Assembly: GCF_020382885.2 (NCBI RefSeq)
Contig: NC_058504.1
Location: 15,077,019 to 15,141,018 of the forward strand
Reading direction: 5' to 3'
Length of the DNA: 64,000 nucleotides
DNA from: Scatophagus argus
Lineage: Eukaryota; Chordata; Actinopteri; Scatophagidae
In this document: positions 6,758 through 64,000 of the stretch, in pieces
How positions within the stretch are numbered: the stretch's first letter is position 1
Layout: each line of letters opens with the position of its first letter
The notes under the pieces: generated by a model
Database searches by the model: none
What the model saw: only the letters and a program-made list of their open reading frames with translations
Told to the model about the DNA's origin: nothing
Made by a program: the position numbers and the translations under genes

Positions 6758-6933
6758 GTGAGTAAATTTAATCTCTGATTCGTCTTAAATGTTTATGATT
6801 GCTCACCATAATTTACATTTTGAAGTATGATTTCTTTGGCTGTAGTCTTTTTTTCCATTTCTTTGTTTTCAATTTAAGCATGACTGCTGTGACACAGTAA
6901 TGATTTGTGGTTTCATTTTTACTCAGCTCAACG

Positions 6934-7815
6934 ATGGCAGGAAGTTCTGACAGTAAAAATGATGAAAGGGGCCACGGTGATCCACAGTTTCGTTTCCATA
7001 GCTATTTACATGGAGGGACCTCGAGTTTGCTGTCAGCCCTGCCCACTCTCATTGTTTTCCCTGTATATAAAACTGTTTTTCGCCAGCAAATCCACAATAC
7101 CCCAGTTCACCAGGCAGTTGGACAACTCTACAAAGAGGGACTTGTAAAGCTCTACAGGGGCGTGGCCCCACCATTACTGATGAGAACACTTAATGGCACG
7201 CTGCTCTTTGGCCTCCAGGACACCATCCTCCACAAGCTCTCCCTGTCATCCCAAAATGTCATCTCCACCTCTGCCCTGCCTGCTCTGGCTGGGTTTGGTG
7301 CAGGCATGGTAGAAGCTGTGGTTCTAACCCCCTTTGAGCGCATCCAAAATGTGTTGCAAAACAGTCAAAACGACCGTCAACTGCCCACCTTGAAAAGTGT
7401 TCTCGTCAAGCTGAAGGCACAGAGGCTGGCCTCAGGGTACTACAGAGCTTTCCTGCCCATCACAGCCCGCAACGCCCTCGGCAGCTCCCTCTACTTTGGC
7501 CTGAAGGGGCCTATGTGTGCCGTCGTGGCAGGACAAGGACTGTCTCCAGTGTTCTCCTCCTTTATCTCAGGAACACTGACCTCCATGGCAATCAGCTTAG
7601 CTCTTTACCCACTGTCTGTGCTTGTGGCAAACATGCAGGCACAGGTGGGAGGGGAGGTGAAGGGGGTCATGGCTTGCTGGAGGATGCTGTGGAAATCTCG
7701 GCAGGGGCGTGTCGCTCTGCTTTACCGAGGAGGTTCTCTGGTTATTTTGAGGTCATGCATTACATGGGGAATCACCACTGCTATCTACGACAGGCAGCAG
7801 AAACATTCAGGCTGA
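6934..7815 (+). CDS. slc25a53: Solute carrier family 25 member 53-like mitochondrial carrier
   Basis: A single coding exon (exon begins at 6927 after a tactcag acceptor) encodes 293 residues, normal for a mitochondrial carrier of six membrane helices in three repeats. The start at 6934 (MAGSSDSKND) lies just inside the exon; an upstream in-frame methionine at 6907 lies in the intron. Signature positions are FPVYKTVFRQQ (42-52), TPFERIQNVLQ (about 132-142) and YPLSVLVANMQ (about 225-235). The FRQQ form of repeat 1 is typical of the SLC25A51/52/53 (MCART) group, whose member SLC25A51 carries NAD+ into mitochondria. The substrate of SLC25A53 is not established to my knowledge. Position between prps1 and a thymosin beta gene matches human Xq22 and favours SLC25A53 over SLC25A51. 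The third signature lacks the usual acidic and basic residues. Confidence 0.85.
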   Translation: MAGSSDSKNDERGHGDPQFRFHSYLHGGTSSLLSALPTLIVFPVYKTVFRQQIHNTPVHQAVGQLYKEGLVKLYRGVAPPLLMRTLNGTLLFGLQDTILHKLSLSSQNVISTSALPALAGFGAGMVEAVVLTPFERIQNVLQNSQNDRQLPTLKSVLVKLKAQRLASGYYRAFLPITARNALGSSLYFGLKGPMCAVVAGQGLSPVFSSFISGTLTSMAISLALYPLSVLVANMQAQVGGEVKGVMACWRMLWKSRQGRVALLYRGGSLVILRSCITWGITTAIYDRQQKHSG

Positions 7816-14580: not shown

Positions 14581-24442
<9,862 letters not shown>

Positions 24443-27566: not shown

Positions 27567-30500
27567 ATGGATCAAGGAGGAGGGGTGTTAGAGCTGCACA
27601 CTCAGGAGCTAAAGATGCCCCATGCTATGATCATGCAAGACTTTGGTAAGTGGTCACATAGACCAAAATGACAATCATTATGACGCAACTGAAATGAATT
27701 TCAGCATGCAACATGTAATCCCAGTCTTATTTTCACAAAAAGATAAATTCATAAGATGACATCTCTAACTCATAACAGTTTCACTGCATAACAACATAAA
27801 GGAGATTTACCTTCACAAACATATGATGGGAAGCTGCACTATCTCTACTGTCGCTATAGTGTGCAAAAAAGTGGGTTGTAGTTTTGATTGTCATTTTGCC
27901 ATTTGAAGCTCTCTGTCATGCACTTCTTTTTCCATCTTTTGTTTTCAGTTGCGGGCATGGGAGGTCTGGCTCACATTGATGGGGAGCACATTGTGGTGTC
28001 TGTGCCTGAGGGTATGCTTCTTTCTGATGTGATGACAGATGAGGGCATCCTCCTGGAGCATGGGCTTGAGGTGGAAGGCCTAGAGACTCAGGTGGTCGAA
28101 GGACTGGAAACAGAAGTAGTGGAGAGCTTACATGCAAATGTAGAAGGCTTGGAGGCAGAAGTAGTTGAAGAGCTGCAGACACAGGTGGTAGAGCTGGAGG
28201 CTGAGGTTGTTGAGGGACTAGAGGGTGAGGTGGAAGTAGAGGGTCTCGAGGCACAAGTGGTGGAAGGCCTAGAAACTGAAGTTGATGTTGAAGGTCTGGA
28301 AGCTCACGTTGTTGAGGGCCTTGAGGAGGAGGTAGAAGTTGAGGGTTTAGAAGCTGAAGTTGTCGAAGGCCTAGAGGTAGATGTTGAAAGTCTGCAAACT
28401 CAAGGGGTAGAGGCCCATCAAATGACCAGTGAAGACATGGTGTCCTCAGAACATAGTGTCATTATGCCTGAGAATATTCTTGGGACAGAGGTTGCGATAG
28501 AGGAAGCACTCGACCCACATCATCACCACGTGCTAACGTCAGACCTCATCCAGGACTCAAACCACCACCATGATGACATGTCAGACCAGGTGTTTGTGGC
28601 AGAGTTACTGTCTGAGCATCAGGACAACACTCTAGACCACCAGCTTGTGTCAGAAGGCTTGATGGTGACAGAGGCCAACTCTGAGACCATAATCCACCAA
28701 CAGCTGCCAACTGAGGCTGTTCCCCTTCAGACAGATGAGGATGATGATGCAAGGAGCAGCTCTGAGGATTACCTCATGATCTCCTGTAAGACAGCTTGAC
28801 ATGTGTTAACTTATATTAATAAACATTGTTCTTATGCAAAGCTTTATAATTGCTGATTTCTGATAATTAAGGTTGTTTATGTTACTGTAGTGGATGAGGT
28901 GGGAGAGAAGCTGGACATTGGAGACACTCCACTTGAGATCAGCACTGAGGTAATGGAAGACAAGGAGTCTAAAGAGGAGGACGGGTCAGAGGTCATCAAA
29001 GTCTACATTTTCAAAGCTGAAGCAGATGACGATTTAGGCAAGTGACTGAAAAAAAAATCAATTCAGTTGTTTCAACAATATAATTTACCTGTGCATTCTT
29101 GCCTGTTAAACTGAATGTAGATCATGACTTTGATTAAACTGTGTTTTTTCCCTCCCAGGTGGAACAGAGGTAATCACAGAGGATGACTACCAGAATGGCC
29201 ATCCTGACCTGGAAGCTGCATCATCAGGTAGACTGGGAGTTGGACGCGACAAGATGGTCTACATGGCAGTCAAGCACCAGCCAAAAGTGGAAGAGGATGA
29301 TGAAGATGACAGTGATGATGATGACGATGATGACATCAGTATGTTCCTTTGTGAAACAGCTTTTGACCCATTTCATGAGACAGGTTTTGTGACTGTAAAT
29401 AAGTAGAAGGTGTGAATCTTCTACCTTTGACTGTTGAAATGAGATCTGTAAGAGGCGCTGCTTAACATCGGCATCCTTTTTAGACAAATTACTCACCAAG
29501 ATGTTTTTGCCTGTGTTTGTGCAGTTTGTTTAAGAAATATCACAATCTGGATAGATAATATGACAGTGCCATCGAGCAGTTAGCATGTTTCACAATGTAA
29601 GGTTTCTGTGCAGTTGATAAGTAAATGTAAACCGTATTTGCAGGTAATACCATTGATCAGGTGAAGAATGGAGCTTCTGGACCATTTCTGCAAATCCGAG
29701 AGGGGCTGGGTGCTAACCGTGCCCTCAAACCCAAAGCCAGAAAAAAGAAGAAAGGAGAGACACGGCAGTGTCAGACTGGTATGAACAGTACCAAATGCTT
29801 TATGCTAAGATAATAAGTTTGTACAACAGATTTATGTGATCTGATAATAAGAATTTCACATTTTCAGAAGGGTGTTAACAGTACTTCCATTTCCATTCTT
29901 TCTCAACCCTCTCTCCCAGCTGTTATCATTGGACCAGATGGTATGCCCTTGACTGTCTATCCCTGTCACATATGTGGGAAGAAGTTTCGTTCACGAGGCT
30001 TCCTCAAATGCCACATGAAGAACCACCCGGACCATCTGCTTAAGAAGAAGTACCAGTGTACAGACTGCGACTTCACCACCAACAAGAAGGTCAATTTCCA
30101 CAACCACCTGGAGAGTCACAAGCTGCTGAGTCATAACAGTGAGCGCTCTCCAGAATACACTGAGTACACACGGCGCTACCACGAGTCCAGCCCCCTGGGT
30201 TCTGACAAGCTCATTGTCAAAGACCGAGAGCCCAAATTGCATCACTGCAAGTACTGCGACTACGAGACAGCTGAACAGGGCCTGCTCAACCGTCACCTGC
30301 TGGCTGTGCACAGTAAGAACTTTGCACATGTGTGTGTTGAATGTGCCAAAGGCTTCCGTCACCCATCAGAGCTGAAGAAGCACATGCGAACCCACACAGG
30401 CGAGAAGCCATACCACTGCCCGCACTGTGAGTTCCGCTGTGCAGATCAGTCCAACTTAAAGACTCACATCAAGAGCAAGCATGGCGCAGATCTGCCGTTC

Positions 30501-31100
30501 AAGTGCAGCCACTGTCCTCAAGCATACGCTGACGCACGGGAACTCCAGCGCCATATAGAGATGGTGCAAGGCCACAAGACCCATCAGTGCCCACACTGTG
30601 AGCACAAGAGCACCAACTCCAGTGACCTGAAACGACATATTATCTCCGTTCACACCAAGGACTTCCCCCATCAGTGTGACGTGTGTGAGAAAGGCTTTCA
30701 CAGGCCTTCAGAATTGAAGAAACACGCAGAGACACACAAGGGCAACAAGGTGCACCAGTGCCGGCACTGCAACTTCAATGCACCCGACACCTTCACCTTG
30801 AGTCGCCATATCCTGTCCTTGCACACGAAGGATCTCCCCTTTAAGTGCAAGCGCTGCCGGCGGGGCTTCCGGCAGCCCGCTGAGCTGAAGAAGCACATGA
30901 AGACACACAGTGGTAGAAAGGTTTATCAGTGCCAGTATTGTGAGTATAACAGTACGGACGCTTCTGGCTTCAAACGCCACGTTATCTCCATTCACACTAA
31001 GGACTATCCCCACCGCTGCGACTACTGCACCAAGGGCTTTAGGAGGCCTTCGGAGAAGAGCCAGCACATAGCCAGGCATCACAAAGAGATGTTGATGTAA
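27567..31100 (+). CDS. znf711: Zinc finger protein 711 (ZFX/ZFY family transcription factor), 6 coding exons
   Basis: Nuclear DNA-binding transcriptional activator; human ZNF711 is an X-linked intellectual disability gene. Coding exons are 27567-27645, 27949-28785, 28891-29037, 29159-29338, 29644-29778 and 29920-31100 (2,559 bases, 852 residues; human is about 760). The start [12 protein letters not shown] and [20 protein letters not shown] follow human ZNF711 closely, as do [27 protein letters not shown] and TAVIIGPDG. An acidic activation region (to about residue 430) precedes a basic NLS ([11 protein letters not shown], about 443-453). Twelve C2H2 fingers follow (from residue 475), with the ZFX-type two-finger pattern and CxxC...GFRRPSEK...HHKE end. 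Two unusual points are a residue 68-179 repeat of VEGLExEV units absent from mammalian ZNF711, and a GC-AG intron after 29037. The end HHKEMLM favours ZNF711 over ZFX. Confidence 0.96.
28071..28406 (+). repeat. In-frame tandem repeat coding for acidic VEGLExEV units
   Basis: Inside znf711 exon 2, about 14 units of 7-9 residues (consensus VEGLE-x-EV; variants [22 protein letters not shown]) cover residues 68-179. The DNA is a matching degenerate repeat with variable third positions, so it is an old or selected expansion and not a fresh slippage tract. Confidence 0.9.
29038..29158 (+). other. GC-AG intron in znf711
   Basis: The donor reads GATTTAG|GCAAGT and the acceptor CCTCCCAG|GTGGAA. Only this junction keeps the family sequence ([11 protein letters not shown]) in frame. 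The nearby GTGACT donor would hit a stop. GCAAGT is the usual strong context for rare GC donors. Confidence 0.85.
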
Positions 31101-32690: not shown

Positions 32691-35600
32691 TTTTTGTATT
32701 TTCTGTCCTGCGAAAAGGAGTCACCTTTACGTGACATCTTAAAGACCCAGTCAGGAATTCTATCGCCGTCTAACCCTTGTTTATGGCCACGCAGATTTAT
32801 AAAGGGTTGATTGTACCAAATCTGTATTATGTTTGACCAACATCAGCTCTTGTTGATAATTCAGGACGTTTCTTAAATTTTCTCAAAAAACAAACAGAAA
32901 ACATTCACTTGTTCCGATTCATGGGTTTGCAGGAATATTTGTACACTGAGTGCTCTTTAACTTATCTGTCAAGCTGACAGTTTCCGTTGTCCCTGCAGCA
33001 CGGCTTCAGCATTTGTTGTGACTGTACAACTTCAGTCCAAACAGGCCATCTTGTCATCTAGTAAAAGGCAGTGCCACATTTGAGTTGATCACTAGCTCAT
33101 CCTCCTCCACACCTGTGCATGCATGTAGGTTTTAGTGAACGAGGCAGCTGAATGAGTACTGTACTGTCCAGTCTTGTGAATGCTATCCCAGTAGACATCA
33201 AAGTGTTCCACTTTAGGTGGCAAGCAGTGAAAGAGGCTGCTGATTTATTTAGAATACTACAGTTTCAATTTTAGACCACAAACATCAGAATTGTTAGTAG
33301 TCAGAGGGGAAAGGTCAGTATGAGAGAGTGAGAAATAGTAATGAGTGTAAAACTGCATTTGTTGTATACATTATTGTATAGGAAGGATATCATTGCTTTG
33401 GGGTGGTCTCAGAGGGGCTTTAGAAACCCGCCCTGACCCTAAATGGATTAAGGAAAAGCTTCCTTCTCCCAGGATAATTGAAGTGCATTGATCGAGGACC
33501 TGAGCCACACCATCTACACGGCTTCATCCACCTGGAAAGCTGACGGGCCATGCAAACACTGAAGACGATGAGAGTATCCACACCGAGGGGAGAAACAGAC
33601 AAACATGCAGAGAGGGAGAGATGGGCAGAGGATGAATCTCCTGGGTGGGGGTAAAGATCCAGATCAATGACTGGATGGGGTACCGACAGCCAGGACAGAA
33701 AGAGACGGAGGTCCCGAGGTGCCTGATAGTCGGGCTCAGTCTTGTTATTAAATAAACATTAACATGTTTTTCCTCTACCCTGAGACTCACTGCGGGGTTG
33801 ACTGTTTCAACAAGATGTGTTGCAGTCGTGTCTGGTTTCACTCCCGTGTCATCTGTCTTGAATGATGTATGATGCTTCGTACTGAGGGAAATGAGGCTGT
33901 GCAGATGGGTTCTCATGGACACCGCAGACACCTTAGAAAAGAAACAACAGCCTGTTCAATGTTGTTGATCCCACAGAATATCTCATAAATCACTTACTGG
34001 TGCAGCTGTCAGCACGAACCGCTGAGAATGTTGAGATCAATATGCAGACATACCCACAGAATCCTCCCTAAGTAACCCTTCACTTTCATTGTGTGATTCA
34101 AGCATTCGGTACGAGTAGCATGTTTAGTTGTTTTTCCTCTGAAGGTAGATTTAGCAACAGTGGTAGCATTAAGCACTGTCTCAATGTGCTGAACCACTTT
34201 CTCTCCCACGGGTTGCAAGCCTCTTCTCTGCCTGTTTTGAATCAGCAAAGCATCAAACACAAATGTACGCGGGACACCGACACCGCAATACGCCTCGGAA
34301 GGCCATCACTGTGATGAGAACTGACAGACGTACACAGATAATCCAGCTGCTGCAGAAGGTCAAACTAATTTATTTTATGTAGTCATTTTGTCCAGGATCA
34401 ATGGACTATGGTCTGGATGTGATTAGAGTGATGAAACTGCCAGTAAAAATCCACAGTCACGTGCTGATAAGTGAAAAGGTCACAATTCATACACAAATTA
34501 TCGTTACTATTATTATCACAAATACACATTTCACTAATTCAATCATTTTAAGTCACTGGCAAGGGATATTTGTTGACAGTAGTTCCAAATATGTAAGCGG
34601 GGTTATACATCAGCGTTGATTATTTTGGATATTTTGTTTTAGGCTGCACAAGATTCTGGTGTTACACAGCATATTGCTCTTGCATATTTCAGTGGAGGGA
34701 AAGGCAAACGGAGCTGGGACTGTGTCATCGACTTATCTCGTTGGCAGACAGCTCTGCCATATTACTCCCAGATCCTGTGGTGGCCCACATAACCAGAGCC
34801 GCCCGATCCAGAGTGTCGACGACCAGGCTGCAGTGCTGCAAGCCAGTTGGAAACTGCGTGGCCCTCACGGAAATCAGTGCCAAGATGCTCGGAGATGGGT
34901 AAAACTGGCCCACTGATCAGTCAGAGAAAGAACGGTGTGGTGGGCTACTCACGAGAAGAACAAGACCGAGACGCAGAGCATAACCAGCCTGTGCAAGTAT
35001 GTCCAGCAGCTAGTATGTGGATCTTGGGCTGGGATTGTTTTGTCAGGCTGATATTTTAAAGGTCAGGGATGAACTTTAATGCTTAACTTTTAAGCCCAAA
35101 ATGTACTATGAAAGGAATCATAGCAGCTACTCAAGTCACGTCACCATGACAACTGTGCCAAAATCATCTGCGTGATATGGTTGAAAGCTCTGGACAAAAA
35201 CCTACAACTTTCATTCACTTTTGTACACCAGCCTCCACTCATAACCAGAGGAGCTATAGTTATTGACAAATACGCTTGTATTTGTGTCCTTTATGGTTTG
35301 TTAAAAAAAAACATTTATTGCATGTTTATTTAGTGAGGTATGGGGCTTTAGATCCCCCCATCCAGACATGTATAATTTGCATCTAACAGTTTTTTTTAGC
35401 TAAAATTCTTAAAATTCCAGCGAGCACATCTCTCCCCTTTAAAAGTCCATAATTTATGAATATGCCAATATTGCTTCAAACCTGCTGAACAGAAAGCATC
35501 TTATACTTCACTGAAGGTCCAATCTCAGTGTATGTGCATTTGGGGACTTTTAAGCTTCCCCATCACACTTGTACATGTTGGATAATGGGCCATGACTGGC

Positions 35601-36229
35601 TTGTTGTGATGTCACAAAATCATGTCATTAGGCTGCATCTCTTAAAGTCAGATTTAAAGGTGATTAATGGGGCCCCCCATTAATTAAAATATATACCATA
35701 TACCAACTAACACTATAGTAAATCTCTGTCAGAGTGAATTAATATTTCCTCTTGAGTGTTCACTAGATGTCACTGTTATCCCATCCTACTGAGAGACACC
35801 TACTGCACAAAAATAAATGCATCAGAATTAAATGCATACCCATGTCTAAGTCAGTGGCTGGATTTTAATGAGACTCCACTAAAAATAAATCAACCCCTGG
35901 AGGCTGCTGTTATTTTATTCTGAGACAACGATTTAGTCAAGTGAGCACGCTGATAATAAAATCCATGAATGGATGTTGGGACTACAGGTTTGGCTATTTT
36001 TTTCTATTTATGAGAGTTATGTTGTTGAAATGTATGAATTAGATATTTATAGGAAAAATTCCAAACAAAAGAGAGAGAGAGACTCCTTTAAACTGGTTCT
36101 GTATGTATTTGGGGCGACTAGATCATTAAAATTTTAGGGATAATAGTCAAATATGCACCCTCAAGCAAACACAGTAAAGAGCCTGGTCATCTGCACTGAC
36201 CTCTGAGGGTACGAGATTTGGACCTGGGT
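32691..36229. other. Intergenic spacer between znf711 and kctd12
   Basis: No gene is certain. An exon-like open frame at 34693-34899 is listed separately. AATAAA near 33753 follows a GC-balanced stretch (33420-33740) that might be a decayed transcript end. The right part (about 35100-35830) has the look of an old dispersed repeat. Confidence 0.4.
34693..34902 (+). other. Unidentified exon-like open frame
   Basis: After a tatttcag acceptor, a frame stays open for 69 codons to a TAA (34900-34902) that overlaps a GG|GTAAAA possible donor. The DNA has more CpG than its flanks. The translation includes ILLPDPVVAHITRAARSR and NCVALTEISAKMLGDG, which looks protein-like, but no family was recognised and the other frames and the minus strand are also largely open. 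It may be a lone exon, a decayed gene piece, or chance. Confidence 0.25.
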
Positions 36230-36500
36230 CACAGGAGAGCGGCGCGTCACCGGGGGTGGGCGTGGCTAACCGGGGCGAAAGCCGTACCTCCGTTACGTTG
36301 CAGCGGAGTTACAGTCTGACACGAGACACGGGCAGAGAAATTGCAGAGCTGACCACCTCGCACCTCGGCTGATGGAAGGGACGGAGATCTTTTTGTACAT
36401 CTTCCTCGTCTCGCACTACGTCTTCACCATCCTCTTCATCTCGTGGCTTTTCGTCTACGGAGTACCCACAGAACTTACAAACTATGGATTGCTTAATTGA
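36225..36500 (+). promoter_or_regulatory. kctd12 CpG-island promoter and leader
   Basis: Abrupt GC- and CpG-rich block (ggcgcgtcaccgggggtggg, ccggggcgaaagccg) within AT-rich surroundings, with no TATA box evident. It is the only promoter-like region before the kctd12 coding exon. A donor-like tgaag|gtgggc follows at about 36503 and an acceptor-like tttgagcag precedes 37028, so the leader may be spliced. This is not certain. Confidence 0.55.
36372..36500 (+). CDS. 42-codon ORF for a hydrophobic single-pass peptide (uORF or microprotein)
   Basis: Starts at an ATG with G at +4 inside the CpG island and stops at TGA 36498-36500. The 42-residue product has a short polar start (MEGTE), about 25 hydrophobic and aromatic residues (IFLYIFLVSHYVFTILFISW then LFVYG), and a short polar tail (VPTELTNYGLLN): the plan of a single-pass membrane microprotein. 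It lies about 535 bases upstream of the kctd12 start on the same strand, so it may be an upstream ORF of the same mRNA or a separate small gene. I do not recognise the peptide. Translation is unproven. Confidence 0.4.
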   Translation: MEGTEIFLYIFLVSHYVFTILFISWLFVYGVPTELTNYGLLN

Positions 36501-37032
36501 AGGTGGGCCGCCTGATCCCGTCTGCGCCAGGACAACCGAACAAAATTAGAGTAAGAGAAGTCGTTATGGACAGTTGTGCCAATCGTGCTGCTTTTCCTGC
36601 TCAAGGAACTGGTGTAAAAAGCAGACTTTCAGTCTCAGTGTACCACATCTGCCTGTGCGTAAAGTACGCGGACAGAACAGTTCCATTGAACGCTGCCTGA
36701 AATACTCCGCGCTATGTTTTAGTAACCATGGGAGAAAGCTTTAGTTAGAGTAGCGGGTGTTTTTCATTGACTGTTGTATTACTGTCGGCTTTAATGTGAG
36801 ACTGGCGGCCAGCTTTTATTGCGTGCGTACCAATCGTGCCCTGCACTTGAGCCGCTCCGTTACCACAGGCGATCCACCGCAACAGGACCTGCAGTCTTTG
36901 ACAGGCAACAGACCTCACCAACCGCTGTAAAAGGTTTCACAAAAAGTCTTGTAATTTCAGCTTTTGCTAGAACCAATTTTTTCTTTTAAAAAAGAAAAAG
37001 CTGCATCCAAGTGCACCTTTGAGCAGAAGTAA

Positions 37033-37887
<855 letters not shown>

Positions 37888-38760: not shown

Positions 38761-38863
<103 letters not shown>

Positions 38864-62934: not shown

Positions 62935-64000
62935 CAGTGCATCCGGAAAGTATTCACACCGCTTTGCTTTTTCCACATTTTGTTATGTTACAGTCTCATT
63001 CCAAAATGGATTAAATTAAATTTCTCCCTCAAATTTCTACACAAAATACCACATAATGACAAAATGAAACAAGTTTGCTTGAATCTTTTGCAAATTTATT
63101 AAAAATGAAAAATAAAAAATGTAACATGTACATAAGTATTCACACCCTTTGCCATGACACTCAAAATTAAGCTCAGGTGCATCCTGTTTCCATTGATCAT
63201 CCTTCAGAGGCTTCTACAACTTGAGTTGAGTCCACCTGTGGTAAATTCAGCTGATTGGGCATGATTTGGAAAGGCACACCCCAGTCTATATAAGCCCTCA
63301 CAGTTGACAGTGCACGTCAGAGCACAAACCAAGCCATGAAGTCAAAGGAATTGTCTGTAGACCACTGAGACAGGATTGTGTCTAGACACAGATCTGGGGG
63401 AAGGGCACAGAAAGATTTCTACCACATTAAAGGAACCACCAGGACTCTTCTTAGAACTGGCCACCCAACTACACTGAGTGATTGGGGTATAAGGGTTTTA
63501 GTCAGGGAGGTGGTCACTCTAACAGAGCTCCAGCGTTGCTTTGTGGAGAGGGGAGAATCTTCAAGAAGGACAGCCATTTCTGCAGCAGTCCACCACTCAG
63601 GCCTGTATGGTAGAGTGGCCAGACGGAAGCCACTCCTCAGTAAAATGCATAAGAAAGCCCATCTGGAGTTTGACAAAAGGCACCTGAAGGACTCTCAGAA
63701 CACAAGAAACAAAATTCTCTGGTCTGATGAAACAAAGATTGAACTCTTTGGCATGAATGACAAGCGTCATGTCTGGAGGACACCAGGCACTGTGCACTGG
63801 ACCTCAGCCTGGTGCAAAAGTTTATCTTCCAACAGGACAACAACCCTAAGCATACAGCCAACATCACAGAGGAGTGGCTTCAGGACAACTCTGTGAATGT
63901 CCTTGAGTGGCCCAGACTTGAACCCTATTCAGCATCTCTGGAGAGATCTGAAAATGGCTTTGCACTGACGCTCCCCATCCAACCTGATGGAGCTTGAGAG
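62935..64000 (+). mobile_element. Tc1/mariner-type DNA transposon, decayed, cut by the window end
   Basis: Begins cagtgcatccggaaagtattcacac directly after a TA (62933-62934), the Tc1-family target site, with the long AT-rich inverted-repeat region and the cacaccccagtctatataagccctc leader known from fish Tc1-like elements. The transposase region starts at about 63336. The right inverted repeat lies beyond the window. Confidence 0.9.
63336..64000 (+). pseudogene. Inactive Tc1-like transposase
   Basis: A DDE-type transposase remnant. The likely start (MKSKELSVDH, 63336) meets a stop after ten codons (TGA 63366-63368). The frame from 63378 shows the second part of the DNA-binding domain and the first catalytic aspartate (KILWSDETKIELFG). 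The second aspartate block (FQQDNNPKHTAN) appears from about 63824 in another frame, and the segment normally between the two blocks is mostly missing. The region after VLEWP, where the family has its NPIEHLW block, has shifted frame again. It therefore cannot encode an active enzyme. Confidence 0.88.

Follow-up and report, generated by a model that had tools for sequence, protein, structure and literature searches.

Does a short hydrophobic reading frame in front of a fish kctd12-type gene encode a selected membrane microprotein, or is it an ordinary upstream ORF (uORF) whose product happens to be hydrophobic? The question is raised by an ATG-initiated ORF that lies on the same strand as, and 5' of, the main ATG (37036) in a 64,000-nucleotide stretch of Scatophagus argus DNA (C12:15077019-15141018; this whole stretch is called the window), and that was originally suggested to be either a translated microprotein or a peptide uORF controlling kctd12 translation. 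Our analysis indicates that the product is striking and probably incidental, and that the ORF should for now be regarded as an ordinary upstream frame, at most as a candidate.

A 42-codon ORF in the CpG island upstream of a kctd12-type gene

The coordinates, strand, length and peptide of the predicted ORF were all confirmed (Table 1). It encodes the 42 residues MEGTEIFLYIFLVSHYVFTILFISWLFVYGVPTELTNYGLLN, and 535 bases separate its stop from the kctd12-type ATG. As had been proposed, it sits in a CpG island: seven 200-base windows from 36201 to 37000 gave a GC content of 0.44-0.59 and a CpG observed/expected ratio of 0.78-1.00, the latter against just 0.00-0.40 in eleven windows from 35001 to 36200. 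The island thus has a sharp upstream edge at about 36200 and extends to about 37000. The assignment of the downstream gene also stands, as a kctd12-type gene, its product matching the KCTD8/12/16 H1 domain (Pfam PF23110, E 2.3e-55) and BTB_2 (PF02214, E 4e-17), with KCTD12 as the top two of 24 PDB matches.

Table 1. Positions of the ORF, its surroundings and the control ORF, numbered from the first letter of the window.
Feature	Position	Strand	Description
42-codon ORF	36372..36500	+	peptide hydrophobic and helix-like, lacks K and R, net charge -3
CpG island containing the ORF	36201..37000	.	CpG observed/expected 0.78-1.00 per 200-base window
kctd12-type coding sequence	37036..37887	+	283 aa in one open frame, with BTB and H1 domains
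Second upstream ATG ORF	36484..36549	+	21 codons, overlaps the end of the first ORF, A at -3, G at +4
Third upstream ORF	36566..36700	+	44 codons, G at both -3 and +4; peak Kyte-Doolittle 0.90, not hydrophobic
Donor-like site AAG/GTGGGC (cut at the slash)	36500..36508	+	top score in the leader; begins on the final base of the stop codon
CCAATCGTGC	36579..36588	+	CCAAT-box-like, downstream of the ORF
CCAATCGTGC, identical second copy	36830..36839	+	CCAAT-box-like
Plain CCAAT, third copy	36973	+	downstream of the ORF
KLF/SP-like GGGCGTGG	36258		near the upstream edge of the island
Control ORF	29227-29376	-	50 aa, peak Kyte-Doolittle 3.15, antisense between two zfx-type exons

The window holds further genes and elements. 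Pfam matches identified a ribose-phosphate pyrophosphokinase exon (1897-2280), a single-frame mitochondrial carrier (6904-7815), two SLAIN exons (22114-22515 and 23886-24257), a Zfx/Zfy activation-region exon (27888-28799) and a C2H2 zinc-finger exon (29817-31100). A run of TA dinucleotides at 38763-38858, 3' of the kctd12 stop, by itself yields an open YIYIYI frame, and the frame at 63369-63896, which matches a Tc3-type transposase helix-turn-helix (PF01498, E 5.6e-11), is probably part of a Tc1-like element.

The hydrophobicity of the peptide is unusual for island DNA

In one reading, which we consider unlikely, the kctd12 leader would give rise to a selected single-pass membrane microprotein and the gene would be bicistronic. 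Residues 6-31 form an unbroken apolar run, 26 residues that include no D, E, K, R, N, Q or P, which speaks for that reading, and the peak Kyte-Doolittle value over a 19-residue span is 2.16 (exact value 2.158). We set the peptide against chance with three measures, namely the peak Kyte-Doolittle value and a simple sum of insertion energies, each over 19 residues, and the longest run free of D, E, K, R, N, Q and P. The comparison set comprised 988 other ATG ORFs of 30-60 amino acids on both strands of 35 sequences (the window and loci L016-L049), with genuine exons kept in. For this ORF, chosen post hoc among the many features of a 64-kb window with several genes, the peak value was reached by 32 of the 988 ORFs, the insertion energy by 19, the run length by nine and all three by two. 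The corresponding counts among the 316 ORFs of the window alone were 9, 6, 4 and 1, and among the 77 ORFs from GC- and CpG-rich surroundings 1, 1, 0 and 0. When the leader was shuffled 5,000 times with its dinucleotides preserved (36310-37035, with an assumed 5' end), an ORF with such a peak arose in 0.54% of shuffles, with such an energy in 0.14%, with such a run in 0.02% and with all three in none, and in a larger set the hydrophobicity of the ORF was matched in 51 of 10,000 leader shuffles. The claim that leader ORFs of random sequence rarely resemble a membrane peptide therefore holds in GC- and CpG-rich DNA and in leader shuffles and fails genome-wide: such hydrophobicity stands out in island DNA but not across the genome as a whole.

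The composition of the peptide is also informative. Lysine and arginine are both absent in seven of the 512 ORFs of 40-60 amino acids, this ORF being counted among the seven. Positive charge orients a membrane helix and is carried by a mitochondrial-type N terminus; the peptide has neither an orienting charge nor such an N terminus, which argues against a microprotein. AlphaFold predicted a single helix spanning residues 3-41 with a mean pLDDT of 90.8. The control, a hydrophobic ORF from the opposite strand of the zfx-type region (Table 1), was modelled as a helix over residues 2-49 with a pLDDT of 86.0. Because this chance ORF also yields a confident helix, the model does not discriminate, and we rejected it as evidence for a microprotein; a helix that chance equals weighs, if anything, on the other side.

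The peptide has a single match in the genome

Searching the whole genome (570.7 Mb, 48 contigs) with the peptide at E up to 10 returned only the ORF itself, in a search whose first pass gave one candidate and which weak relatives could escape, and the leader DNA likewise matched only itself. As peptide and DNA each match the window alone, a copy or fragment of another gene of this genome was rejected as an explanation. The original statement that the peptide belongs to no recognised family agrees with our searches at E up to 10, in which neither Pfam nor PDB returned a match, for a 42-residue query that gives such searches little power.

The kctd12-type protein matches 13 places in the genome, four of which, besides the gene itself, are nearly full-length with 57-68% identity. 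A second gene of the kctd8/12/16 group is located some 436 kb from the kctd12-type gene of the window, also on C12 (C12:14677125-14677895, 57% identity). Pattern matches of the kctd12 protein to 6 and 66 stretches of virus and prokaryote contig collections, respectively, gave no confirmed relative.

We examined one 9.9-kb stretch for each of the four paralogues and found no clear counterpart of the ORF upstream of them. The last 3,000 bases of each stretch contain no ORF of at least 20 amino acids with a peak Kyte-Doolittle value of 2.16, the top value being 1.92. Of the loose, unfiltered tblastn alignments, the best covered 20 residues at 23 bits (E 0.010) and the next scored 21 bits (E 0.052); these two are located several kb upstream of their paralogue genes. 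That no relative appears in this genome or upstream of the four paralogues counts against a selected microprotein. A conserved non-coding block in common with the paralogues was rejected as well: the search gave three alignments, 19-28 bases long with E 0.25-0.86, which we attribute to chance and of which one falls inside the window. Nor was a structured RNA retained as a candidate, since 194 of 200 shuffles of 36310-36520 fold equally well or better (z +1.65) and Rfam gives no family in the window at gathering score.

Codon choice gives mixed evidence

Codon usage was scored with a model trained on kctd12 and 29 receptor genes of this genome (11,085 codons; a thirtieth receptor locus, L046, has stops and was excluded). 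The ORF reached 10.8 bits in its own frame against -7.0, -15.9, -3.0, 6.2 and -13.1 bits in the five other readings, a result that favours a microprotein. So do the leader shuffles, in which an ORF of at least 10.8 bits arose in 8 of 10,000, and one with both this score and the hydrophobicity in 0 of 10,000. With a local background the ORF ranked 19th of 989 ORFs by codon score, and at least one of the 12 best-ranked resembles, judged by look, a genuine exon. The receptor-trained model favours hydrophobic composition because its training genes encode membrane proteins; with the codon usage of non-receptor genes (2,061 codons) the score of the ORF drops to 3.8 bits, which tells against the microprotein.

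A synonymous test, in which the peptide is held fixed and codon choice alone is scored, we regard as fairer. The whole ORF scored -0.6, about halfway between the values expected by chance (-7.8, sd 4.8) and for coding sequence (7.5, sd 4.5), and the density ratio of coding to chance was 0.67 with the receptor-trained model and 0.17 with the non-receptor genes. With the composition of the ORF itself as background, the synonymous score was higher than chance would give (P 0.025) and lower than coding would give (P 0.037). Of 243 real membrane stretches from receptors, 16% did not exceed the score of the ORF. Across the whole ORF, synonymous codons do not favour coding, and a selected microprotein loses this support.

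Parts of the ORF behaved differently. In a split made after seeing the data, codons 1-29 were coding-like (P 0.0055 against chance) and codons 30-42 chance-like (P 0.003 under coding). Cytosine occupies the third position in 20 of 42 codons, where about 12 would be expected given the peptide (P 0.0056 with the island background and 0.0034 with the ORF's own composition), an excess that is independent of the training set and suits a microprotein. The autocorrelation of 36385-36460 points the same way, with values of 0.37-0.42 at lags 3, 6, 9 and 12 and of 0.19-0.31 at the remaining eight of the first 12 lags. A tandem or decayed triplet repeat was rejected as the source of this pattern: no array was detected at score 30 in 36200-37040, and the period of three comes without a repeat unit. 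The codon evidence is mixed overall, with codons 1-29 and third-position C on one side and codons 30-42 and the whole-ORF score on the other, and taken together it leaves the standing of the microprotein reading unchanged.

Leader anatomy and the position of the transcription start

Six upstream ATGs lie in the stretch from 36310 to the main start. The first in the island, that of the ORF, has C at -3 and G at +4; the three at 36484, 36566 and 36728 combine a purine at -3 with G at +4. Donor, acceptor and promoter motifs were scored with general weights, not fitted ones. The donor-like site would be cut before 36503, two bases past the stop codon, and belongs to the top 0.65% of GT dinucleotides in the window; such a site directly after the ORF stop is compatible with the ORF lying in a first exon. 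Joining 36503 to the acceptor-like sites at 36869, 36905, 36961 or 36971 would leave two upstream ATGs and place 67-169 bases between the ORF stop and the kctd12 ATG. With the best acceptor-like site, at 36606 (top 2.3% of AG), five upstream ATGs would stay, and with the one at 37027 the second uORF would overlap the kctd12 start.

The CCAAT boxes 3' of the ORF are compatible with a start site that excludes it. Under this somewhat unlikely alternative, kctd12 transcription would begin downstream of 36500, and the ORF would be promoter DNA that never enters the mature mRNA. A CCAAT box usually stands some 60-100 bases from the start, and the copies at 36579, 36830 and 36973 would suit starts at this distance further downstream, in an island that continues to about 37000; moreover, an unspliced leader from about 36310, with its six upstream ATGs, would be costly for the main ORF. 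However, an upstream start would fit equally well with an island that begins at about 36200 and bears the KLF/SP-like motif at 36258, and the presence of the top donor-like site of the leader at 36503 also argues against a start beyond the ORF.

A hydrophobic nascent chain, encoded in a leader and begun at the first upstream ATG of the island, could also act through its sequence, as a regulatory uORF whose peptide would stall ribosomes or draw the mRNA to the ER. We consider this very improbable, since no arrest motif was recognised by eye and all the preceding points against translation and selection apply here too.

Discussion

At this locus the likeliest readings are a leaky uORF of the generic kind or promoter DNA, the product being hydrophobic by accident. 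We tentatively prefer the first, an ordinary uORF in a promoter-proximal first exon of the fish kctd12-type gene, to which we give a little less than an even chance. The ORF, the island, the ATG contexts and the lack of a second match in this genome are observed; what we infer about transcription, splicing, translation and any effect on kctd12 is the following. If transcription begins upstream of the ORF, scanning ribosomes would reach its ATG first; given C at -3 and G at +4, some of them should initiate there and others pass. Translation of the ORF would lower kctd12 output in the general manner of uORFs. If the leader were spliced from 36503 to an acceptor close to the kctd12 start, the 44-codon uORF would be lost and less sequence would separate the two reading frames. 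The hydrophobicity would be incidental, second-position T in a pyrimidine-rich stretch giving F, L, I and V.

According to Vakirlis et al. (PMC7005711), the membrane propensity of a sequence, whether real or scrambled, is driven by its thymine content, and this would be the simplest account of the ORF peptide. Like the emerging membrane ORFs described there, the ORF has a predicted helix that derives from T-rich codons (T at the second position in 21 of 42) and has no relatives that we found; the yeast cases, in contrast, arise in thymine-rich intergenic DNA, whereas this ORF lies in a CpG island and has C at 20 of 42 third positions.

None of the indirect tests, on the genome, the paralogues, known families and whole-ORF synonymous codons, favours a selected microprotein. 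The points that fit one are codons 1-29, which resemble real membrane-protein coding DNA, the third-position C and the donor-like site. In its fullest form this reading would make kctd12 a bicistronic gene of the fish lineage, encoding a GABA-B auxiliary subunit together with a 42-residue single-pass microprotein without positive charges that would serve in the same neuronal membranes or tune kctd12 translation, a proposal we hold to be quite improbable.

Known systems provide partial parallels. STREMI, or SLC35A4-MP, is described in the available text as conserved across vertebrates, with a positive PhyloCSF score, translated and located in the mitochondrial inner membrane (PMC13303939). Our ORF resembles it as a small, here predicted, membrane peptide encoded 5' of the main ORF of another gene; unlike STREMI, for which these properties are reported, it is a candidate predicted from sequence. 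KCTD does not occur in the main text of that report on 14 human bicistronic transcripts, whose transcript list is placed in a figure and a dataset (PMC13303939). The dual-coding gene TP53BP1 is likewise reported to have a smORF beside its main ORF, with expression tied to promoter choice and reinitiation (PMC10193022); that case was characterised by experiment, unlike the kctd12 ORF, for which such control is a possibility. In the available text of literature pairing kctd12 with uORF, microprotein or ribosome profiling, we found no report of a leader product.

As it stands, the ORF is one of many upstream ORFs, and it provides a worked example in which high peak hydrophobicity and a confident AlphaFold helix are insufficient to mark a microprotein. 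Should its frame prove conserved, the gene for a GABA-B auxiliary subunit would carry either another product or a leader peptide switch.
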